From: Thiomicrospira sp. XS5
Lineage (GTDB): Bacteria; Pseudomonadota; Gammaproteobacteria; Thiomicrospirales; Thiomicrospiraceae
Assembly: GCF_001507555.1 (NCBI RefSeq)
Contig: NZ_LQBO01000001.1
Coordinates: forward strand, 1,240,001 to 1,304,000
Length of the DNA: 64,000 nt
Direction: 5' to 3'
Position 1 is the first letter of the stretch. Each line of letters opens with the position of its first letter. The translations under genes and the position numbers were made by a program. Below, in pieces: positions 51,872 to 62,952 of the stretch. The notes under the pieces are model-generated. The model did no database searches. It saw only the letters and a list, made by a program, of their open reading frames with translations, and had not been told where the DNA came from.

Positions 51872-51880
51872 CCAGAAATT

Positions 51881-51926
51881 TGGTAGCGGGGGGCTGGATT
51901 TGAACCAACGATCTTCGGGTTGTGAG
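51881..51926 (-). repeat. att copy 1: tRNA-fMet 3' fragment, diverged
   Basis: Matches the 3' half of the tRNA-fMet gene (CCA end to anticodon loop) with one G insertion and two substitutions. It marks the outer left end of the island, probably the tRNA end displaced by the oldest insertion. Confidence 0.85.
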
Positions 51927-52092: not shown

Positions 52093-52557
52093 TTAATTTT
52101 TTAGAACAGGCTTAACAAGCTTTTTAGTTTCGTAATGATCTCTTTTTAAAAAAATCAATAATAGTCCAAAAAAAGCCAGCATCAGCTCAATTAAAAATGC
52201 CACCATAATTTCTAACGACGGTATACCGTCTAGCATAAAACTCAAGGTTCTAAATACAATAAATACTGTATAGAAAGCTACAGAAATGAATACAGCGGAT
52301 TTAATTGAGTCCTTTCTAAAAGTTGCTATAAAAACATAGAGACCTATGCTAAATATCAACCCTCCCATAGCTCTCAAGTCACTTAGAAAACTAACTGATG
52401 GCCCAAGATTCTTATCAATGCCGCCATTTAACTCTAAGCCCAACGGTACATTCATACTAGTCAAATAATCATTAGGCGTTAAAGAGATATATGCTCCAAC
52501 TAGAATAATGATCAAACCAGAAATTAATAAATAAGTTTTTGCAATCCAGTTACCCAT
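52093..52557 (-). CDS. DUF4345 family membrane protein
   Basis: 154 aa with four hydrophobic helices (about 7-27, 64-84, 92-112, 118-138), AGGAGA before the ATG, and the DUF4345-like pattern (TPNDYLTSMNV, SDLRAMGGLIFSIGLYVF). Function unknown. It is 25 bp downstream of the NmrA gene and forms an operon with it. Its codon use is visibly more AT-rich than the core genome, consistent with transfer. Confidence 0.75.
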   Translation of the reverse strand: MGNWIAKTYLLISGLIIILVGAYISLTPNDYLTSMNVPLGLELNGGIDKNLGPSVSFLSDLRAMGGLIFSIGLYVFIATFRKDSIKSAVFISVAFYTVFIVFRTLSFMLDGIPSLEIMVAFLIELMLAFFGLLLIFLKRDHYETKKLVKPVLKN

Positions 52558-52582
52558 CTCAAATTCTCCTACGATTAGTCCA

Positions 52583-53428
52583 TTAACTTACCTGAACTTG
52601 GTTAGATATTGCCCAAACACTGCTCTTTGCTGTTCTTGCAACATACTCATGAAAGCGTACGGCAGGCCGACCTAATACATTTTCAACCGTATCCGTCGTC
52701 CACTCATTTCGGCCATCCAGCACATTGACGAAAAGCTCATTGATTAACCAAGCCATATCCTCGGGTAGCCCCTGCGCTTTTGCTCCAGCCAAGTAAGCAC
52801 CCACAGGAATGCCTGAATAAACAATATTCTGTTTAGTTGCCTCTGAAATGGCTGCAATACAATCTGTAAATGTCAGCATTTCAGGACCAGTCACTTCCAG
52901 TAGCTGGTTGTTTAAATCAATTCTTGTCAGAGCCGCTACAACGACATCCGCAATATCATCTACATCAATAAAAGGTTCACGCGCCTTGGCTTCCGGTAAA
53001 ACCAACTCACCCGATTGAATCCCATCAAGCATAAAACTCTCGCTGAAATTTTGCATAAACCAACTGGCACGAACAATATTCCAAGTTAGTCCACTCTCTT
53101 TAACAGCGGTCTCCGCTCGTTGTGCGCCCTCTTCACCACGCCCAGATAATAAAACGACATGCTTGATATCTTTCTCTTTTGCCAATTCCACAAAGGCTCT
53201 AATGTCTGCCTCTGCCTGAGGGATAGCTAGATCAGGAAAATAAGTCACATACACCGAGTGAATACCTTCCAATGCCTGCTCCCAGGTTTCTCGTCTTGTC
53301 CAATCAAATGGAATTTCTGAACTTCTAGACAACCCTCTAGTTGAATAGCCAACATTGTCTAACTTGTTTAAAACTCTCACACCGGTTTTACCCTGTGCCC
53401 CAATGACTGCAATAATTTCCGTTTTCAT
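52583..53428 (-). CDS. NmrA-like NAD(P)-binding oxidoreductase
   Basis: 281 aa from the ATG at 53428 (GAGG 7 bases upstream). Rossmann motif VIGAQGKTGVRVLNKL (7-22); VVLLSGRGEEGAQRAETAVKESGLTWNIVRASWFMQNFSE and PFIDVDDIADVV are typical of NmrA/QorB-like atypical SDRs that act as redox sensors or quinone/aldehyde reductases. Substrate unknown. It is first gene of the operon divergent from the AraC regulator, its likely controller. Confidence 0.85.
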   Translation of the reverse strand: MKTEIIAVIGAQGKTGVRVLNKLDNVGYSTRGLSRSSEIPFDWTRRETWEQALEGIHSVYVTYFPDLAIPQAEADIRAFVELAKEKDIKHVVLLSGRGEEGAQRAETAVKESGLTWNIVRASWFMQNFSESFMLDGIQSGELVLPEAKAREPFIDVDDIADVVVAALTRIDLNNQLLEVTGPEMLTFTDCIAAISEATKQNIVYSGIPVGAYLAGAKAQGLPEDMAWLINELFVNVLDGRNEWTTDTVENVLGRPAVRFHEYVARTAKSSVWAISNQVQVS

Positions 53429-53565
53429 ATTTCGCCTCATATCGGTTAATTTAATTTTTTGAAATTTGTTTCAACTGCAGAAATAGTTTATAAAAGCAAT
53501 AACTTATGTTTAATGCTCTTATATCCATAGTATTTTGCAGTTTGTCCAATAAAGAGGCTTTGCAT

Positions 53566-54528
53566 ATGAATGACATCAATCAGCGAGAAATCCCGAAGCT
53601 ATCCGACACCTTAGGGCAAACGCTTTATTCCTTAAGACTCAATGGCTTGATGTATGCCAACTCCGAGCTCACCGCGCCATGGGGAGTAGAGATGCCTCCA
53701 ATGTCTGGAAAAATGATGTTTCATATCGTCACCAAAGGCAGCTGTTGGCTGGGTTTCAAAAATGATGAAACGGTCTTTTTACAGCCTGGCGAACTGGTTC
53801 TAATACCAAAAGGAGAGGGACATTCAATCGCCTCGGAACAAGAGATTGAATGTAAGAACTTTTTTGAAATTCCCGTGACTAAACTGTCGGAACGTTTTGA
53901 GTTTATGCGCTATGGCGGTGGCGGTGAAGAGACTCACATAACATGTGGCATCCTGAGCTTTGATCATATAGCCGGACAAAAACTGATTTCTCAATTGCCC
54001 CCTGTTATCCATATAAAGTCTGAAAATAATGAGCTAGCTGAACAACTTAACACGCTCATCAACATTATGGCTCAAGAAGTTGCGAATGCGTCTACCGGCG
54101 GGGAAACGGTTGTGGCTAACTTAGCGGATATTATCGTCATTAAGGCGATACGCTATTGGCTAGAACATTCGAGCGAAGCTCAAGGAGGATGGTTGGGTGC
54201 GTTGAAAGACCCGAAAATTGGTAAAGCCTTGGCGGCCATTCATAACCAGCCCGGCGCCACTTGGAATGTAGAACGTCTTGCAGAGCAGGCAGGCATGTCT
54301 AGATCAGGGTTTTCTGCTCGGTTTACTGAGATCATGGAAATGTCAGTAAAGCAGTATCTAACAGAGTGGAGAATGCAGCTTGCCAGAATGAAAATCATGC
54401 AGTCATCCATTTCTTTACCTAATCTGGCTGAAGATTTAGGTTATCAATCTGAGGCCGCTTTCTCACGTGCCTATAAACGCGTATTTGGATTACCTCCATT
54501 TCGACAGAACCAAAAACACACAGACTGA
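53566..54528 (+). CDS. AraC family regulator with N-terminal cupin
   Basis: 320 aa from the ATG at 53566 (AAGAGG 8 bases upstream); an ATG at 53506 adds an unconserved stretch. A cupin sensor (about 25-190; MSGKMMFHIVTKGSCWLGF, LQPGELVLIPKGEGHSIAS) is followed by two AraC helix-turn-helix motifs (about 215-315; WNVERLAEQAGMSRSGFSARF, LPNLAEDLGYQSEAAFSRAYKRVFGLPPFRQ). This is the RclR-like class that often senses reactive species and controls adjacent SDR and membrane genes. It is divergent from NmrA/DUF4345. Confidence 0.88.
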   Translation: MNDINQREIPKLSDTLGQTLYSLRLNGLMYANSELTAPWGVEMPPMSGKMMFHIVTKGSCWLGFKNDETVFLQPGELVLIPKGEGHSIASEQEIECKNFFEIPVTKLSERFEFMRYGGGGEETHITCGILSFDHIAGQKLISQLPPVIHIKSENNELAEQLNTLINIMAQEVANASTGGETVVANLADIIVIKAIRYWLEHSSEAQGGWLGALKDPKIGKALAAIHNQPGATWNVERLAEQAGMSRSGFSARFTEIMEMSVKQYLTEWRMQLARMKIMQSSISLPNLAEDLGYQSEAAFSRAYKRVFGLPPFRQNQKHTD

Positions 54529-54624: not shown

Positions 54625-54669
54625 TGGTAGCGGGGGCTGGATTTGAACCAACGACCTTCGGGTTATGAG
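54625..54669 (-). repeat. att copy 2: tRNA-fMet 3' fragment, exact
   Basis: 45 bases identical to 62683-62727 of the tRNA-fMet gene, ending at the anticodon loop. This is the left attachment site of segment B, and the identity suggests recent insertion or continued function. Confidence 0.93.
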
Positions 54670-55049: not shown

Positions 55050-55445
55050 ATGTATGTCCTTGATACCAATATCTGTATTTACATTATTAAAAAACAACCA
55101 CCTAGCGTTTTTGAAAGATTTGAGAGCTTACCTTTAGGTTCAGTTTCCATGTCATTAGTGACGTTTGGAGAGTTGGAATATGGTGCCATGAGAAGTAACA
55201 ATTCAGAAAAAGCACTGAATATTCTGGATGAATTGATTAACTATATTCCCGTTTTACCAATGGGAACCGATGTGGCTAAACACTATGCTGATATACGAGC
55301 CGACTTAGCAAAAAAAGGAACGCCTATTGGCAATAATGATCTATGGATCGCCGCACATACAAGATCACTAGGCCACATTTTAGTGAGCAATAACATTAAA
55401 GAGTTTGAAAGGGTTGAAAATCTTCATCTTGAAAACTGGATTTAA
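55050..55445 (+). CDS. vapC: VapC ribonuclease toxin (PIN domain)
   Basis: 131 aa. PIN acidic residues in VLDTNICIYI (Asp5), FGELEYGA (Glu) and GNNDLWIAAHTRSL (Asp), and the C-terminal LVSNNIKEFERVENLHLENW. It cleaves a specific RNA, often initiator tRNA or rRNA, when freed from VapB. It stabilises the island or acts in stress and phage response. Confidence 0.94.
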   Translation: MYVLDTNICIYIIKKQPPSVFERFESLPLGSVSMSLVTFGELEYGAMRSNNSEKALNILDELINYIPVLPMGTDVAKHYADIRADLAKKGTPIGNNDLWIAAHTRSLGHILVSNNIKEFERVENLHLENWI

Positions 55446-55554
55446 ACTTAAGTTAGACTAGATATTTTAGATTTAATGAACGGCGTTATTCTTCTAATAA
55501 TCAACGATAAGTATTTTTGTGATCGACTATTTAATGAGTCTATTAGGAGTGTAT

Positions 55555-55591
55555 GAAAAATTAAGCATTCCGTCACTCAATCAGAATGCTT
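55555..55591 (-). terminator. Terminator of the DRT3 operon and ncRNA
   Basis: AAGCATTC (minus strand 55591-55584) pairs with GAATGCTT (55570-55563) across a 13-base loop, then AATTTTTC. Confidence 0.85.
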
Positions 55592-55689
55592 GAGCCACTA
55601 TAATAAACTTATAACAGCACGGCCAAAGTGTGTGTAATCCTTTTCTTATTAACTAAGAGAAAAGATGTCATTGAGCAATAGACCTTATA
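55555..55689 (-). ncRNA. Candidate DRT3 template RNA
   Basis: Directly after the drt3b stop codon, on the same strand. 5' to 3' it shows a hairpin (CTTTTCT / AGAAAAG, 7 bp), a single-stranded-looking stretch with (AC)4 (55635-55628) flanked by GGATT and TTTGGCC, an imperfect hairpin (CTGTTATAA / TTATTATAG) and a perfect 8-bp terminator stem with a T-run. No open frame fits. DRT3 systems are known to carry an ncRNA, and recent work describes an AC-repeat template for poly(GT) synthesis. Boundaries and the 5' end are inferred; a TATACT at 55701-55696 in the drt3b end might serve as its -10. Confidence 0.7.
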
Positions 55690-57789
55690 TTAGTATACCT
55701 CTAAACTTTTCTTAGATTCCAGTTCTTTTTTAAGGTTAAAGTCTGTCCACTTAATGAACCAGTTCTCTTTCATGCAAAACTCGATAATATCTGCTTTGAA
55801 TTTAGGGCCTGAAATATTATATTTTGTTAACAGTTTTCCTTTAGTGCTTTGTGAAATGAAAGGGCATGATAAGGAGTCAAATAAGAGAAGCGTTAATTCT
55901 GTACTCATACATAGATAATCCTGATCTAATCCAGTGTATTTATCAAGAATACTTTTTTCTATTGAGCGCTTAATTACTGAATAATCATTAAAATTTTTAA
56001 TATAGAACATTAAACAAACAACTGAAAAATATTTTAATCTAGGGTTTGTTTTATATGCCAAACTCGTACCTAATTCTTTTTCAAAGCCAAAATAGTCGGC
56101 CAGATTTTTTTCAGTTAATTTATAGGTTCTTCCGAGTTCAGATAGCGCTATTAATAAATAAAGTGTTTCGACATGAATATGTTCATCATATCTATTATTC
56201 TTAAATATAATGTTGATATTATCTGAGATTGATTTAAATAGATGGTGCTTTAAATCCTTATTTTTAAAGTTTTTATTTGAAAATAAAATTATATTTTGAA
56301 TAATTCTGGAAACCTTAATTGTATAACTTACCCTTTGAGCTGCAGAATATATAAAAAACATAAACTCAACAAGCTCTATTAACGCCTGAATAATATTTTT
56401 CTCTTTTGGATTATCTATATTTAGGTAAATATCTAAAATCTTTTCGGTTTTAGATTCAAGAGATGCTAAAGCGTAATTGAGTACATCCTTATAGTTTGCG
56501 CCGGACTCCTTTAATATTGTTTTGAATTCAACTATTAGCTTTGAAGCGTTAAGAAATATTTCACCTTTTTTTATAAAATCACCAGGGGGTTGCTCTACAT
56601 CTTCAACATGAAATTTAATTGAGTTCATAAGATTAGAAATCTTATTTTTAGCGATTGTTGTTTCTGTTATTATCGGTTTTTCATATAAATCAACTTTTTC
56701 ATTATTAAAAGACAGTTTATATTCTTTCAATTCAAGTTGAAGAAATTTAACGATAATATTTTTATGTTCATCTTCATTGAAAAAGATAAAGTAATCATCA
56801 ACATATCTGTAAACTTGATAATCAATCCCTTTTTTTAAAGACTTTTCCGAAAGTTTTTTCGACAAATTCAAATCTATTTTCTGAAGAATTAACTCTGCAA
56901 AAATTCTTGAAAATTCAGGGCCTATAATGACTCCATTAGTTTCATTAAAATTCAAGTTTTGCATCAACGAATCAAACTGTCCTGCAAAAAATGTCTTTGA
57001 ACTACTTATGTCTTTTTTTACTTCATATTTATCTAAAACAGCCCAAGAGATAGAATGCGTATAAATACTATCAAAACATTTAGATATATCTAACTTCAAA
57101 AGCTTGTTATATTTCTTTTCTGCCCGATGATATATGTAGCTTTCAAAGAACTTATATACGTTACTGTATCTTTCATATGTAAAATATGACTTTAGTGTTT
57201 CGTATTCTTTTTCATATTCCTCGATCGTAACTATAGTGTCGTTAGACTTATTCTTAGAATGGATTTTATCTTTAAAAAAGTAACTCTTAGCAACAGACTT
57301 AGGCCTTCTGATTGAAAAACTACTTTTATCTGAATAGTAAATAATTAAATCTTTATATTTTTCATAAAAATTAACCATTTGAACTTGGCTAAAAACGTGT
57401 GGAATACTAAGAGTTCTAAACTGGTGTTCTTTATGAGCAATATCAAATGAAAATGGAATCTTTTGAAGCTTATTATTTTTAATTTCCAAGAAAAAAATTT
57501 GATCTGCTTCCTCTGTATAATTGCGGCGATCTTTAATGTCATGGGAATAAAATAACAGTCTTATGACTGTTTCAAAAACAAGTTTTTCATCATTAGTTGA
57601 AAAAGCATTCTTCCACTTTATTTTAGCTGAACTATCTCCTTTTTCGAGCTCATAACGAATACTATATTCGTTTAAAAACCTGTAAAAAAATCTATTTGAA
57701 AAGATAGGAGGAACCTCATAAGGAAGAACATCAGAGAGAACCACTCGGTTTCTAGAAAAACCAAGATTAGATTTTATTACTTTAGGCAT
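55690..57789 (-). CDS. drt3b: Defence reverse transcriptase, DRT3b (UG8-like)
   Basis: 699 aa. An N-terminal conserved block (FRTLSIPHVFSQVQMVNFYEKY... FSIRRP) is typical of UG/Abi-like RTs. RT motif A is LKLDISKCFDSIYTHS with Asp234; motif B is NGVIIGPEFSRIFAEL; motif C is YRYVDDYFIF (YVDD 329-332). A long alpha-helical C-terminal half (about 400-699) has no known catalytic motif, as in UG8 proteins. The ATG overlaps the stop of the first RT by 8 bp. Both RTs are required in studied DRT3 systems, where the second makes the complementary strand of the repeat DNA. AT-rich coding. A retron RT is less likely: no msr/msd-type upstream RNA is seen. Confidence 0.82.
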   Translation of the reverse strand: MPKVIKSNLGFSRNRVVLSDVLPYEVPPIFSNRFFYRFLNEYSIRYELEKGDSSAKIKWKNAFSTNDEKLVFETVIRLLFYSHDIKDRRNYTEEADQIFFLEIKNNKLQKIPFSFDIAHKEHQFRTLSIPHVFSQVQMVNFYEKYKDLIIYYSDKSSFSIRRPKSVAKSYFFKDKIHSKNKSNDTIVTIEEYEKEYETLKSYFTYERYSNVYKFFESYIYHRAEKKYNKLLKLDISKCFDSIYTHSISWAVLDKYEVKKDISSSKTFFAGQFDSLMQNLNFNETNGVIIGPEFSRIFAELILQKIDLNLSKKLSEKSLKKGIDYQVYRYVDDYFIFFNEDEHKNIIVKFLQLELKEYKLSFNNEKVDLYEKPIITETTIAKNKISNLMNSIKFHVEDVEQPPGDFIKKGEIFLNASKLIVEFKTILKESGANYKDVLNYALASLESKTEKILDIYLNIDNPKEKNIIQALIELVEFMFFIYSAAQRVSYTIKVSRIIQNIILFSNKNFKNKDLKHHLFKSISDNINIIFKNNRYDEHIHVETLYLLIALSELGRTYKLTEKNLADYFGFEKELGTSLAYKTNPRLKYFSVVCLMFYIKNFNDYSVIKRSIEKSILDKYTGLDQDYLCMSTELTLLLFDSLSCPFISQSTKGKLLTKYNISGPKFKADIIEFCMKENWFIKWTDFNLKKELESKKSLEVY

Positions 57790-59200
57790 TCTTCCACACC
57801 TTTACTATTTCATGAAGGTAACTAGAACTAGGAAGTGATTTATTAGGAGCTTTATATTGTCTAAATATCTTTTCTTGAAACCCTTTTTTAAAAGAATACT
57901 TATTAAGCTCAGATATTAATGGTGCAAAATCGATAGGTAATTCACTAGTTTTTCTATCTATATCTAAAATTCGTTCTTTCAAAAATTTGTCTAATTCGTC
58001 CAAGCAAGACAAATCATTAATGAAATTATTGGAGTAATAAACACCTACTAACGTATTTTGTTTTAACCCAAACAGTTTAGTATTGCTTGTCAAATATCTA
58101 ATTCTATTCAGAAGCATTCGTGAAGCCGTTTTTTTATTTTTATAGGCAGTAAATAAAAAATCACTTATACTTTTTTCAATCCGCCTTTTAACCTTGTTTA
58201 TTTTTTTTTCTGACATACTAATACTTAAACTCTGCCCTCCGTTATAACTGAAACAATATCCTAGATACTCAAACTGAGCTATTGAACTTTTATCAAAATT
58301 TAATGGATCAGGTGTTGTTTTTTCCCAGTTTATTTCAAGATCTAAGTCAGTACTAACTTGTTGCTTTAGTTTAGAAAACAATTTATTAGCAACGTCTTTA
58401 TTCCCTAAAGTAACAACAACTATATCATCGACATAACGGGCATAAAATAAAACTCTATCATCTAACTTAATTGCAGTATCTAGCCTTTTCATATATAGCT
58501 CGGCCAAGTAAGCACTAACACCGACGCCCCTAGGTAACCCTTTAGGCATTCCAGATAAGTTTTCATATTCATCAAACAGAGATTTAAAGAGCAATTTGTT
58601 CTTAAAAGTCAAAAGAGCATCATTATCTATATAATCCATTAATTTATTGTTTGATATAGTTTCATAAAAAGACTTAATGTCTGTTCTTATTACACATTTC
58701 GATACATTGTTATCTAACACTTCTTTTAAAGAAGAAATTATGTTCTTCCTATTGCTTTGCTTTACTTTATAAGCTCTTTCTAAATTTATCTGCATTTGTT
58801 TTAATGCGAAAAAGTCATTAGGAGAGTCGGAAGGGATAACATATAAATCCTTTAGCTGTTTGCTTGTTTTTAAATTAAGCTTGATGCCAAATGAATTTTT
58901 AGAGACTTCTTGACTTATTTTGTTAAAAACGTTCGCATACTCTTGCTCTCTTTTATTTAATGACTTTTTCTTTCGGGAATTTAAATCAAGTACCTTTTGT
59001 TCAAATTTAGATTTTGAAATCTTTTTTTCTTTTCGTAATTTTTTAAATTCCTTGTAAATAGAATTCCATTTTTTGACATCATTTGTATATTTTTCTATTT
59101 TAGAAAAAACTGAAAAAAATGAGTCTAAATCATTTCCTTTACGCTTTTCTAAATCATAAATTTTTCTAAAATTCTCTTCTGAAAAACTCTGATCAATCAT
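57782..59200 (-). CDS. drt3a: Defence reverse transcriptase, DRT3a (UG3-like)
   Basis: 472 aa. A Lys/Glu-rich, coiled-coil-like N-terminus (about 1-100) precedes RT fingers and palm: motif A VIRTDIKSFYETI (Asp174), motif B GMPKGLPRGVGVSAYLAELYM (221-240), motif C YARYVDDIVVV (YVDD 256-259) and motif E-like FEYLGYCFSY. A C-terminal thumb (about 320-472) follows. No maturase, endonuclease or Cas1 domain is present, which argues against group II intron, retron-type or CRISPR RTs. It is first gene of the pair; the upstream 182 bp is divergent with an unknown gene. Family knowledge: DRT3a uses a dedicated ncRNA template. Confidence 0.82.
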   Translation of the reverse strand: MIDQSFSEENFRKIYDLEKRKGNDLDSFFSVFSKIEKYTNDVKKWNSIYKEFKKLRKEKKISKSKFEQKVLDLNSRKKKSLNKREQEYANVFNKISQEVSKNSFGIKLNLKTSKQLKDLYVIPSDSPNDFFALKQMQINLERAYKVKQSNRKNIISSLKEVLDNNVSKCVIRTDIKSFYETISNNKLMDYIDNDALLTFKNKLLFKSLFDEYENLSGMPKGLPRGVGVSAYLAELYMKRLDTAIKLDDRVLFYARYVDDIVVVTLGNKDVANKLFSKLKQQVSTDLDLEINWEKTTPDPLNFDKSSIAQFEYLGYCFSYNGGQSLSISMSEKKINKVKRRIEKSISDFLFTAYKNKKTASRMLLNRIRYLTSNTKLFGLKQNTLVGVYYSNNFINDLSCLDELDKFLKERILDIDRKTSELPIDFAPLISELNKYSFKKGFQEKIFRQYKAPNKSLPSSSYLHEIVKVWKNA

Positions 59201-59382
59201 AAAAATCTCGATTTCTTGTTATCTGACTTCATATTAAATGAAATGTCTAAAATGTATACGTCATAATACACACAAAGCCTACCAATTAAAAATAGGACTT
59301 AAATAAATGGCATCAAAGTTATGTGTACTTCCTTAATGTATTAAAACACTAAAATTCATAAATTTAATCATCACAAAAACAT

Positions 59383-60018
59383 ATGAATGAAGAAACATTT
59401 CACAAGTTAAAAAATGTTCTAAAAGAATCTATACCATCAATTCTCGGGTTAATTCATCCTGATACTCGGACTGTAAAAGCTCAAATAACCCAATATGAAG
59501 ATACCGAGTGGTTTAAGTTCTATCAATTAGATATACAATCACTTTTTGAAATAACTAATGATCAAAGTAGACCGCACCGTGAATGTTCACAAGCCTTGTA
59601 TTGCGGGCTTCGAAATTATCAATGTATTTTGAAATACAAAACCTCAATGGCCGACCTTTTTAAAGTTTTTTCAATTTATCCTAACGATAAAACACTTTTA
59701 CAGATAGTTGATATTGACCGACTAACAATCTTCTATCCACCAATTCAATTACATATAGCAAAAGCGGTTGTTTCAAATAATTATGAACTCTTATCTCAAT
59801 ATGGAAAAGTCATTGGATCAGCTCTAAAGATTCCTAAAAGAAATTACCCTGAACTTGTTTTTGCTGTCTGGTATTTACTTTCAACCGATTGCTATTCGGA
59901 GCTTTCACGGTCTCAAAAAATCGATCTTTTAACTCCTTTTTATTCAACATTCAAAGAACCTGAAAGTCTTCTACAGGAAATAGGACGAATTAAAAGAAGC
60001 TTGCAACTACATAAATAA
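59383..60018 (+). CDS. Hypothetical protein divergent from the DRT3 operon
   Basis: 211 aa, AT-rich. No domain is recognised, no signal peptide, no transmembrane segment. Features: PSILGLIHPDTRTVKAQITQYEDTEWFKFYQLD near the start, a HRECSQALYCGLRNYQCILKY stretch with three Cys, and a mostly helical second half (AKAVVSNNYELLSQYGKVIGSALKIPKRNYPELVF). It could be a regulator or accessory of the defence operon, or an element gene paired with rep. No strong Shine-Dalgarno is visible. Confidence 0.6.
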   Translation: MNEETFHKLKNVLKESIPSILGLIHPDTRTVKAQITQYEDTEWFKFYQLDIQSLFEITNDQSRPHRECSQALYCGLRNYQCILKYKTSMADLFKVFSIYPNDKTLLQIVDIDRLTIFYPPIQLHIAKAVVSNNYELLSQYGKVIGSALKIPKRNYPELVFAVWYLLSTDCYSELSRSQKIDLLTPFYSTFKEPESLLQEIGRIKRSLQLHK

Positions 60019-60114
60019 TCAAAAAACGTGTCGGTGAATAAATAAACTCATTTCCATAAAGTTGTCTCCAACGTTGCAACGTTAATTATTTATTAACGAA
60101 ATGGAGGTTTCTTT

Positions 60115-61377
60115 ATGTCACAAAAAACAAATCAATCTGAAAACCAAACCACCCCGCACGAAGAGATTTTATCTCCCACGCCATGCGAGGGAGATAAAAC
60201 TCTGAGAGCGGCGGTTGCCACTTCAATGGGTGCCTCACCTTGTAACACAGCACCCTGCAAATACACGCAGGAACAAAGCAGGCACATTTGTCCATTACGC
60301 TGTGCATTGGACAGCCTTTATTTATCCTTCCACGGAACGACGTTCGAAAAAGTTGAAGACCGTTTATTTGATTTAAAAAACATAGCTCAGGGTAATTCAT
60401 CCATTCGCACGTCTCAGGCTTTTTATCAAATCTTAGATCATCAGTTTGAGGTTAAAGCGAAAGGGGCTGGGAAGTTTGCCTACGTGTTGGAAGATAACTG
60501 GTTTCGTATTGAGGTCTCGTCGGCTAAATCGAAAAAGCTGCCTTTGGCTTATGTGCAAATCAGAAGCGAGTTATTAACTTTTCAACCGTTGAAGGTGATC
60601 ATTAAGAAGCTTAAAAAAATTATCCATTTAATCGGTGACTATAAAGATGAACCACGAATCAGCCGCTTGGATATGTGTTTGGATTTATATACAACCGATC
60701 ACTTTAGTTTCGAGCAGATTAATGAAGAACAATGGAAAACCAAAGCAACGCAAATCAGCGCGTTTTATACCAATAAAAAATGTTCCGGTTATTCGATTGG
60801 CAAAGGCGATATTGTGGGACGAATTTACAACAAGCTTTTGGAAATAAAACTTTCCGGAAAAGAGTACCTTCTTCCGCTTTGGAAAGAAGAGGGGTGGAAC
60901 GGTGAACAGGACGTTTGGCGCGTGGAGTTTCAATTTAGACGTGCCTTTTTGCAAGAAGCCAATATTTTGTTCTTGAGTGACTATTTATTGAATCGTCAGA
61001 ACCTATGGCACTATGCTTCTCAGCACTGGTTACAGCTTGTGCAACCGAATGATCAAGATTCAAACCCGTCACGCTGGCCGGTTCATCCCGCTTGGCAGGA
61101 AATTTCCCGTGCGTGTTCCTGTACCGAACCCAAACGCCTGAGACGGGTCTCGAAAGAGCGTATCCCGTCGAATCACTATTTGTTTGTGGCTGGGTTTGGG
61201 GCGATCACGTCATTCATGGCCCGAGAAGGCATCACTGATATTGGTGAAGCTTTTGGCGAATATTGGCAACAAGCCGAAGAGTTCCACAAGCAACACAAAG
61301 GCTTTGATCTTAACCAATACTTACAATCCAAGGTTGAGGAAAAAGCCAAACGGTTCAACAAGATTCAGGAGAAATAA
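60115..61377 (+). CDS. Replication initiation protein, Rep_trans-like
   Basis: 420 aa, GGAGG before the ATG. The Cys-rich N-terminus (about 40-65: SPCNTAPCKYTQEQSRHICPLRC) may bind metal. The replication initiation factor core is visible at DEPRISRLDMCLDLYT (181-193), with GYSIGKGDIVGRIYNKLLEIKLSGKEY (a Tyr-bearing segment) and VWRVEFQFRRAFLQE. This family (pfam02486 type) nicks DNA for rolling-circle replication in filamentous phages such as the RstA class, plasmids and ICEs. It would replicate the excised element. Four bases separate it from the next gene. Confidence 0.8.
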   Translation: MSQKTNQSENQTTPHEEILSPTPCEGDKTLRAAVATSMGASPCNTAPCKYTQEQSRHICPLRCALDSLYLSFHGTTFEKVEDRLFDLKNIAQGNSSIRTSQAFYQILDHQFEVKAKGAGKFAYVLEDNWFRIEVSSAKSKKLPLAYVQIRSELLTFQPLKVIIKKLKKIIHLIGDYKDEPRISRLDMCLDLYTTDHFSFEQINEEQWKTKATQISAFYTNKKCSGYSIGKGDIVGRIYNKLLEIKLSGKEYLLPLWKEEGWNGEQDVWRVEFQFRRAFLQEANILFLSDYLLNRQNLWHYASQHWLQLVQPNDQDSNPSRWPVHPAWQEISRACSCTEPKRLRRVSKERIPSNHYLFVAGFGAITSFMAREGITDIGEAFGEYWQQAEEFHKQHKGFDLNQYLQSKVEEKAKRFNKIQEK

Positions 61378-61380
61378 CCC

Positions 61381-61719
61381 ATGAGTGAGCAAAAAACGCT
61401 CACTCTCCAACAAGCGGCGGTATTTTTGCAATGCAACCCTGAGACGGTCAGACGGCTGGCTCAGGCGAAAAAAATTCCGTCCGCTAAGCTTGGACGCAAG
61501 TGGGTATTTATCGAACAAGACCTTGCACAATTTATCCGAAATCAATATTCTATTGGCGAGAGTGTTGTGCAAGTTGTTGACAACAATGAGGAATCTTCAT
61601 TATGTCAATATACAAACGAAACGCTATCTGGTGGACTGAATTCATTGCACCAGACGGAAGAAGAATACGACGCTCTACTGGGACTGAAGACAGACGCTCG
61701 GCAGAAGAATACGAAGTAA
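61381..61719 (+). CDS. Excisionase-like HTH DNA-binding protein
   Basis: 112 aa. A MerR/Xis-type winged helix at residues 1-57: LTLQQAAVFLQCNPETVRRLAQAKKIPSAKLGRKWVFIEQDLAQFIRNQY. A polar tail follows. It is the likely recombination directionality factor. The last 118 bases overlap the integrase gene in another frame, a rare large overlap that links their expression. Confidence 0.85.
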   Translation: MSEQKTLTLQQAAVFLQCNPETVRRLAQAKKIPSAKLGRKWVFIEQDLAQFIRNQYSIGESVVQVVDNNEESSLCQYTNETLSGGLNSLHQTEEEYDALLGLKTDARQKNTK

Positions 61720-62627
61720 AGCTGAAACATGACCTTTGGCGGGTTCATCACTTAGGTGAAAAGCCCAGAATGTTATGGAAAGAAGCGGTCGTTCGTTTCA
61801 TGCGTGAGAAACAGAACAAAGATCAAACCAATGAAGTGAGCATCTTCAAATACCTTGATCCTTTTCTGGGTCACATGTATGTCGATGAAATTCGCCGTAT
61901 GCATGTGGACGAAATCATTCAACAGCGGTTGAAAGAAGGCGTCACCAATACGACGATTAATCGTTTGCTTCAGAAACTGAGAGCCGTACTCAACAAAGCA
62001 CACAAAGAATGGGAGGTGAAATGCGATCCTCCTTACATCAAACTCTTGAAGGAACCCAAAAGACGTGTTCGCTGGATTACGGAAAGCGAAGCGCAGAAGC
62101 TGATTATGGCATTACAGCCACACACAGCGGATATGGTGGTCTTTTCTTTGGAAACAGGGCTGAGGGAGTCCAATGTGACCTTGCTCCGATGGGATCAAGT
62201 GGATCTTTCCCAACGCATTGTTTACATAGAAGGGGACGATATTCTGAAAAGTGATCAAGCTTTTGTGGTGCCGCTTTCCGATGTCGCGGTCGAAGTAATC
62301 AAAAAGCAGGTCGGTAAACACTCAGAACGTGTGTTTACGTTCAGAGGGAACCCGGTTCGACGCGCTAATACCAAGTCTTTTAAAGAGACTTGCAAAGCGG
62401 TTGGATTAACGGATTTTCGCTGGCATGATTTGCGCCATACTTGGGCCACGTGGCATATTCAGAGAGGAACGCCTTTGGAAGTGCTTCAAGAACTTGGGGG
62501 CTGGTCGGACTATAAAATGGTTAAGCGGTACGCGCATTTTAACCACCAGCATTTACAGAAATTCGTCAATCGCGGAACCCCGACAGACGTACCCACAATT
62601 TTCCCCACAAAGGTGAATTTTGGGTAA
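61602..62627 (+). CDS. int: Tyrosine recombinase (integrase)
   Basis: 341 aa. N-terminal DNA-binding MSIYKRNAIWWTEFIAPDGRRIRRSTG, a SAM-like core-binding domain (about 55-145), and the catalytic domain: Arg188 (ETGLRESNVTLLRW), Lys near 216, HxxR at 275-278 (WHDLRHTWATWH), Trp301 and the nucleophile Tyr310 (KRYAHFN). The set is complete. It lies 55 bp from the tRNA-fMet site and should catalyse insertion there. The ATG at 61602 is preferred because MSIYKRxxxWW is the family's usual start. Confidence 0.93.
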   Translation: MSIYKRNAIWWTEFIAPDGRRIRRSTGTEDRRSAEEYEVKLKHDLWRVHHLGEKPRMLWKEAVVRFMREKQNKDQTNEVSIFKYLDPFLGHMYVDEIRRMHVDEIIQQRLKEGVTNTTINRLLQKLRAVLNKAHKEWEVKCDPPYIKLLKEPKRRVRWITESEAQKLIMALQPHTADMVVFSLETGLRESNVTLLRWDQVDLSQRIVYIEGDDILKSDQAFVVPLSDVAVEVIKKQVGKHSERVFTFRGNPVRRANTKSFKETCKAVGLTDFRWHDLRHTWATWHIQRGTPLEVLQELGGWSDYKMVKRYAHFNHQHLQKFVNRGTPTDVPTIFPTKVNFG

Positions 62628-62629
62628 TA

Positions 62630-62677
62630 AAAAAGCCCTGACTCACTTCGCTATAAAGCTAATGAAATCAAGGCTTT
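62630..62677 (-). terminator. tRNA-fMet terminator
   Basis: AAAGCCCTGA pairs with TCAAGGCTTT with one mismatch; on the minus strand TTTTTATT follows. It is homologous in layout to the two hairpins beside the att copies. Confidence 0.7.
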
Positions 62678-62682
62678 GAATT

Positions 62683-62759
<77 letters not shown>

Positions 62760-62803: not shown

Positions 62804-62836
62804 GGACTTTCCCGGATTAATTTCGTAATCCTTTCA

Positions 62837-62860
62837 AAAACGGCCAGGCCTGGCCGTTTT
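62837..62860. repeat. 24-bp perfect palindrome, terminator form of the iterated repeat
   Basis: Four A residues, CGGCCAGG and its exact complement, ending with TTTT. Nearly the same as the copy at 10767-10790, with one symmetrical base change on each side that preserves pairing. Confidence 0.8.
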
Positions 62861-62952
62861 ACACTTTCTTTTCTATTTCTTGTAAAACGGATGCGCGAAT
62901 TCTGACGCTATTCGATATACTTTAGGCAACGTGAATTTAAGGTAAGTTTTAG

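Follow-up and report, generated by a model that had tools for sequence, protein, structure and literature searches.

A compact candidate template RNA downstream of the DRT3 reverse transcriptase pair of Thiomicrospira sp. XS5

The DRT3 operon and the element that carries it

The window analyzed here, a 64-kb stretch of the Thiomicrospira sp. XS5 genome, contains two adjacent reverse transcriptase (RT) genes on the minus strand. drt3a (57782–59200) encodes the RNA-templated RT of the pair, a protein of 472 aa with a YVDD motif, and overlaps by 8 nt with drt3b (55690–57789), which encodes a protein of 699 aa; both reading frames are intact. Drt3a (UG3) was identified by PADLOC (4.1e-101), by the NCBIfam model NF041747 (351 bits, cutoff 200) and by its likeness to Drt3a of PDB 9z6y (6.5e-27), and Drt3b (UG8) by PADLOC (1e-194), by NF041748 (703 bits, cutoff 350), and by residue mapping; the two genes share an operon. 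Both RTs resemble PDB sequences of solved DRT3 proteins. A retron or group II intron RT was rejected since the best matches are Drt3a and Drt3b. The RT of DRT10 (UG17) was also considered; the UG17 model scores 110 bits on Drt3a as opposed to 337 bits for Drt3a’s own model, so this RT does not belong to UG17.

The roles of the gate, stacking, catalytic and priming residues of EcoDRT3b are described in PMC13174585. For residue mapping, two loci served as rulers, L095 (corresponding to PDB 26cz over all 667 residues) and L098 (corresponding to 9z6y over 633). Residues E25, R125, D234, R295, Y329-VDD and the last residue, Y699, of the Drt3b in the window align with E22, R71, D182, R241, Y276-VDD and Y666 of EcoDRT3b. 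Together with F239, they occupy the published places of the dATP gate, the stacking arginine, the catalytic aspartates, the dCTP gate and the priming tyrosine, and all three catalytic aspartates are kept (D234, D331, and D332).

An element of roughly 8.1 kb, located at a tRNA-Met gene, carries the operon, together with 45-bp repeats, an integrase, an excisionase-like gene and a VapC gene at the far end. Repeat comparison places the left copy of the perfect 45-bp direct repeat, a probable attachment site, at 54625–54669 (plus strand), while the right copy (62683–62727, plus strand) corresponds to the 3′ end of tRNA-Met (62683–62759, minus strand). A tyrosine integrase (61602–62627, plus strand; Pfam PF00589) and an excisionase-like ORF (61381–61719) were assigned with the PHROG families phrog_1 and phrog_2907. 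The VapC gene (55050–55445) belongs to the tRNA(fMet)-specific NCBIfam family, and the insertion site of the element that carries it is a tRNA-Met (CAU) gene. In the closest genome of the genus, which is 97–98% identical on the tRNA side and 90–91% on the left, the repeat, VapC and the tRNA are present and positions 55440–62671 are absent. Three copies of the tRNA-Met 3′ end are found in the window (51877–51911, imperfect; 54625–54669; 62683–62727), and two elements seem to lie in tandem at tRNA-Met, the left of which would carry 52093–54528. Between DRT3 and a Rep-like ORF of the same element, a 211-aa protein is encoded on the opposite strand (59383–60018); it has no match in PADLOC, Pfam, NCBIfam, or PHROG.

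Layout of the candidate RNA

The stretch 3′ of drt3b contains a candidate template ncRNA of about 129 nt (55556–55684, minus strand), the 5′ end of which is taken from its predicted closing stem and which is weakly matched by two covariance models trained without the window, R1 and R2. All of its elements lie on the minus strand. The 5′ strand of the closing stem P1 (GGUC, 55681–55684) is followed by the 5′ strand of a possible pseudoknot, UUGCUCAAU (55670–55678), and by the hairpin P2 (55637–55666; −6.8 kcal/mol), a likely template boundary. The tract ACACACAC (55628–55635) begins 54 nt past the drt3b stop, at nt 55, and is predicted by folding to lie in a loop beside this stem-loop, with the end of P2 1 nt from the tract on its 5′ side. 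The 3′ strand of P1 (GGCC, 55621–55624) and the hairpin P3 (55595–55617) precede the terminator hairpin P4 (55563–55591), which comprises 10 bp including one U-G pair and carries the 9-nt loop AUUGAGUGA (55581–55573). AAUUUUU stands directly 3′ of the hairpin, so that P4 and its tail span 55591–55556, and the U run (55556–55560) is the probable end of transcription.

The initial annotation had read a hairpin, ACACACAC at 55635–55628, a second hairpin and a terminator on the RT strand, and the sequence reads exactly so, with a U run at the terminator hairpin. Its list of two hairpins, tract and terminator lacked the closing stem P1 (55684–55681 with 55624–55621) and the pseudoknot (55678–55670 with 55581–55573). 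Placing the tract in an unpaired linker between two stems was likewise correct and incomplete, as this linker lies inside P1 and appears framed by the pseudoknot. The stretch had also been called non-coding; apart from the end of drt3b, the overlapping ORFs encode only 20–42 aa, and a small protein was on this ground rejected as the main reading.

Complementary strands for P1, P2, P3, P4, and the pseudoknot are all present in the window, with 4 bp in P1 and 9 possible pairs in the pseudoknot, where UUGCUCAAU would pair with AUUGAGUGA and occupy the entire P4 loop. A pairing of this kind is matched by 1,603 of 200,000 shuffles (0.8%) when the window pseudoknot is considered alone, and it exceeds the 6 bp found in the family; for steric reasons, pairing may be confined to the 6-bp core CUCAAU-AUUGAG, the length seen in the family. 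What supports the pseudoknot is covariation among relatives and, for the window’s own sequence, only complementarity. Over the whole 140 nt, the folding energy is unexceptional (z −1.30, equaled or surpassed by 19 of 200 shuffles), and the P3–P4 part reaches z −3.0 (2 of 200 shuffles as stable). A simple terminator scan, in which loops of 3–8 nt were allowed, did not list P4 with its loop of 9 nt.

Conservation of the tract and covariation of the compact RNA

A lack of conserved stems and AC tract at homologous loci had been named in the initial annotation as grounds for refutation, and the comparison went in its favor: the stems covary in relatives, as detailed below, and 119 of 124 RT-pair loci have, no more than 245 nt past drt3b and on the RT strand, an AC tract of 6 nt or longer, as opposed to 1.7–3.9% of control stretches. 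The main set consists of 116 loci: 8 from plasmids (L001–L008), 80 from genomes (L010–L089), 23 of 34 from viral contigs (L090–L111 and L115), 4 from Escherichia coli (L125–L128) and the window. The genome loci are the best 80 of 473 in a tblastn search with the Drt3b of the window, and the plasmid and phage loci represent the stronger matches, the weaker ones lying mostly outside the sample. The remaining eight loci are L124, L160, and L161, which have the tract, and the viral-contig loci L112–L114 and the phage loci L163 and L164, which lack it; L162 and L165 (repeats of L114 and L113) and L009 (the window itself) were left uncounted. drt3a lies directly upstream in 113 of the 116 main-set loci, the other three being cut by contig ends. 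A single-protein scan of the genome contigs returned no match.

Within the main set, the tract of at least 6 nt is found in 116/116 loci. In control stretches of equal length it occurs on the opposite strand in 4/116, inside drt3b in 2/116, at +500–745 in 2/110 on either strand and at +1000–1245 in 4/102. Tracts of at least 8 nt are present at 72/116 loci and in none of the controls. Eight viral-contig loci with other RTs showed no tract, one of them (L117) having no bases left to search. A chance origin, in which a simple repeat happens to lie in a terminator region next to unrelated RTs, would agree with the ordinary folding energy of the whole stretch and with the presence of ACACACAC at 29 places in the 2.63-Mb genome, both strands counted. 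This count nevertheless corresponds to only about 7e-4 expected copies per 135 nt on one strand, and both position and strand agree with those at 87 other loci of the same clade. The comparative result thus strongly disfavors chance, which we consider scarcely credible.

Two arrangements can be distinguished by the position of the tract. At 88 loci it starts 25–131 nt past the stop (median 41), with 8 nt as the commonest length (54/88), and at 28 loci it starts 102–240 nt past the stop (median 155.5) and measures 6–8 nt; since the genome loci were chosen by their match to the Drt3b of the window, the proportions of the two classes carry no meaning. One locus of the short class, L018 (tract at 131 nt), was assigned from its flanks, before the tree was drawn. 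A tree of 113 Drt3b rows, built by a quick method with a midpoint root and with several long branches flagged, separates the 88 from all others at a branch whose support is 100. The window belongs to this compact class by the start of its tract at nt 55 and by a Drt3b that falls inside the clade, and the template length of four dinucleotides given in the initial annotation is both correct and ordinary for the clade. Both structurally solved systems (L095 and L098) are among the 28 and outside the clade, the nearest drawn group to which consists of L095 with L007, L094, and L115. The dATP-gate glutamate column holds E in 86 of the 88 compact-class Drt3b rows (2 gaps), and the columns of R241 and Y666 hold R and Y in all 88. 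Among the other 28 rows, the glutamate column holds E in 16 and D in 8 (4 gaps), the arginine column R in 25 (3 gaps) and the tyrosine column Y in 28. A comparison of Drt3a lengths between the RNA classes, in which 100 of the 116 loci were parsed, was too coarse to be of use.

As sampled, the compact clade is represented by records of Pseudomonadota, Bacteroidota, Campylobacterota, Nitrospirota, Acidobacteriota, and Margulisiibacteriota, several of them metagenome bins. Compact-class DRT3, recognized by its close DNA match to L001, occurs in at least 9 of 5,426 complete E. coli genomes; L160 and L161 are two of these nine chromosomes and score 59–60 bits with R2.

An alignment of 38 compact loci from which the window was left out (A2), with the structure drawn from one row, L044, yields the order P1, pseudoknot strand, P2, tract, P1′ (the 3′ strand of P1), P3, P4. 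With the pseudoknot drawn, 85.0% of cells are paired, as opposed to 70.3% after shuffling and 36–49% with slid partners, and both sides change in 24 of 28 pairs. The pseudoknot helix itself shows changes on both sides in 6/6 pairs, with 90.5% of cells paired. A second alignment (A3) was made by a model without the pseudoknot and is hence not fitted to it. Here the pseudoknot is paired in 87.1% of cells, compared with 67.4% after shuffling (0/500) and 17–57% with slid partners, while one of five measures, the count of pairs changed on both sides, was reached by 38/500 shuffles. The other, nested helices of A3 are paired in 87.4% of cells vs. 66.5% after shuffling, the measure of both-side changes being reached by 52/500.

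Partner-swap tests over wide regions gave no signal for the pseudoknot (1/34 loci above all swaps) and placed 2/34 loci above all swaps for P1. A pseudoknot signal emerged solely in the version that limited the 3′ partner to the P4 loop, where the mean score with the own partner was 12.6 compared with 10.4 and was reached by 0/20,000 permutations; this test used 33 loci below 70% identity of the 34, as the parser found no P4 in L051. RNAalifold, which cannot draw pseudoknots, found P4 as the sole helix. Taken by helix, P2, P1, the pseudoknot, and P4 covary in relatives; P4 is the best conserved (97–98% of cells paired) and P3 the weakest (64–68%). The P2-to-P1′ linker comprises 8, 9, or 10 letters in 23, 13, and 2 of the 38 rows, and that the template fills this linker suggests that the two helices set the template length.

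The prominence of the terminator hairpin among the helices could also be expected if the RNA were a structural scaffold or merely the 3′ untranslated region of drt3b with its terminator, the AC tract remaining uncopied in this organism. The invariant columns of the 38-locus alignment, however, lie only in the tract, which is kept at nearly all RT-pair loci as counted above, and P2, P1, and the pseudoknot covary as well. The same tract is moreover an essential template in EcoDRT3 (PMC13174585). We therefore judge a scaffold or untranslated region very unlikely. The candidate-template reading of the initial annotation is supported by this comparative evidence, at the level of sequence.

Covariance-model searches point to the same site. 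The best match of R1 (38 loci) in the 64 kb is 55557–55697 on the minus strand (16.1 bits, E 0.03), followed by 62832–62919 (E 0.26), and R2 has 55557–55697 as its sole match in the window (23.0 bits, E 0.014). Searched against the whole genome of the window, R1 did not return the site and gave two other places with E 3.4 and 6.9. At E up to 1, R1 recovers 23 of the 26 compact loci on which it was not trained and none of the 26 long-class loci searched (of 28). R2, whose training set includes a wrong-strand sequence of L028 that matched by chance, adds L054 (E 0.0036), L046 (0.15), and L003 (3), and finds in the long class just two places with E above 4. The models of the clade have no match at E up to 10 at the L095 locus. 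Rfam models match neither this stretch of the window nor the RNA at any of nine loci tried. As the covariance-model match is weak, it serves as a pointer and not as proof, and the argument is built on the position, the tract, the protein clade and the full set of helices including the pseudoknot.

A sequence of about 24 bp at 62836–62860, which matches both strands, recurs widely in the genome and genus and is perhaps a terminator or an uptake-type repeat. The second R1 match in the window overlaps this copy, and one of the genome-wide R1 places (L129, about 1341451–1341556) overlaps another.

The Drt3b of the window sits on a long end branch (0.99) of the clade, and a search for drt3b in 10 further genomes of the genus found none at E up to 1e-20, which leaves no close relatives for comparison. 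Isolation in the genus, the long branch, a P1 of 4 bp only and the marginal R1 score of 16.1 bits would be expected of a real but decayed copy whose RNA may no longer work. Both RT frames are nevertheless intact, Drt3b retains its known catalytic, gate, and priming residues, and the possible pseudoknot exceeds that of the family in length, so that decay appears unlikely.

The five RT pairs in which the downstream AC tract is absent (L112, L113, L114, L163, and L164) form one divergent group, with NCBIfam scores of 240–249 bits for Drt3b (cutoff 350) and 94–104 bits for Drt3a (cutoff 200) in a scan that covered the two RTs of these loci and of the window. They keep Glu and Arg at the gate motifs. 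Between their two RT genes, the RT strand carries a UG tract, within L114 3809–3988 (9 nt), L112 3040–3215 (7 nt; this requires a drt3b start later than that of the longest ORF), L163 3361–3503 (6 nt), L164 3194–3482 (5 nt), and L113 3706–3802 (5 nt). Tracts of at least 6 nt occur in 3/5 of these gaps vs. 12/255 windows of 170 nt from the same loci, and the context GCYGAYG is shared by four of the five. These pairs could represent a third DRT3-like arrangement, whose template would be UG or, if the RNA is antisense, AC.

Proposed mechanism and relation to known systems

The stretch 3′ of drt3b is best explained, mechanism included, as the gene for the ncRNA that belongs to a DRT3 anti-phage system, with a probability of roughly 0.86, and ACACACAC is very probably the template for GT-repeat DNA. 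AC-templated synthesis of poly(GT) by DRT3, which the initial annotation had mentioned, is described in PMC13174585, so that the principle is already known, and the genes found here are indeed drt3a and drt3b. Transcription of the operon probably passes through drt3a and drt3b, continues into the RNA and terminates at P4. In the folded RNA, the ACACACAC segment would hang between P2, which lies 5′ to it, and P1′ of the closing stem, and the terminator loop would pair with the strand just inside P1, as covariation in relatives suggests. This pseudoknot may lock P1 to P4 and thereby present the template. By analogy to EcoDRT3 and DRT10, Drt3a would copy the tract into GT repeats, halt at P2, slip back by dinucleotides and repeat the cycle. 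P2 would form one template boundary and P1′ the other side, and the tract would permit re-annealing in dinucleotide steps; for DRT10, the stem-loop directly upstream of the template has been proposed as the 5′ boundary (PMC12632851). Drt3b, primed by Tyr699, would synthesize the complementary AC strand by means of its Glu25 and Arg295 gates, as its conserved residues suggest. The GT and AC strands would then anneal, and their build-up upon infection would stop the cell, as published for EcoDRT3. In DRT3, one RNA-templated and one protein-templated enzyme together produce a double-stranded dinucleotide repeat.

The folded form with its template-framing pseudoknot appears to be a different version of the DRT3 RNA. 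EcoDRT3 and its close relatives provided the seed of the published RNA model, for which PMC13174585 gives 32 unique matches in the methods and 41 systems in a legend. A literature search confined to text found no second class of DRT3 RNA and no DRT3 pseudoknot, and the class may already be known to Deng et al. (2026) or to Mestre et al. (2022); the pseudoknot literature found near DRT3 concerns DRT2 and DRT10. The compact RNA offers a smaller template RNA together with a structural hypothesis in which P2, P1, and the terminator-loop pseudoknot frame the template. Its model can further be used to annotate loci left unlabeled by Rfam, such as the window and the nine loci tried, and its presence in E. 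coli genomes makes the compact class testable alongside EcoDRT3 in the same host species.

A more far-reaching proposal holds that the compact class is a mechanistically distinct DRT3 in which template presentation reports the state of transcription termination. As the partner of the pseudoknot is the terminator’s own loop, the template would be framed only after RNA polymerase has reached and released the terminator. If true, this would physically connect the class with two published points (PMC13174585), namely the unexplained requirement of DRT3 for GreA and a phage trigger with a predicted resemblance to RNA-polymerase factors. We regard this proposal as speculative and rather improbable. 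The ncRNA gene of a DRT3 system, as set out above, remains the preferred reading and can be compared with several described systems.

EcoDRT3, described in PMC13174585 and represented by PDB 26cz for Drt3b, likewise consists of a drt3a-drt3b operon with a downstream ncRNA bearing an AC tract, and the Glu and Arg gates and C-terminal Tyr of its Drt3b are common to the Drt3b of the window. In contrast, the tract at L095 measures 6 nt and lies 129 nt past drt3b, and its Drt3b falls outside the clade of the window. The DRT3 of PDB 9z6y/9z6z, whose Drt3b is matched by L098, shares the gene pair, the gates (E26 and R253) and a downstream AC tract, whereas the tract at L098 starts 124 nt past drt3b and the locus lies outside the compact-RNA clade. 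Similar in their working are DRT10 (UG17) and telomerase RNA, in which a short template within a structured RNA has an immediately upstream stem-loop that is proposed to define its 5′ boundary (PMC12632851). DRT10, however, combines an RT and ncRNA with a SLATT protein and uses a variable template with A-B-A′ resetting (same source), while the window has two RTs and a pure dinucleotide template. The ncRNA of DRT9 also presents a template loop for repeat DNA, with a poly-U template and a poly-dA product, and differs in its homopolymer template and single RT.
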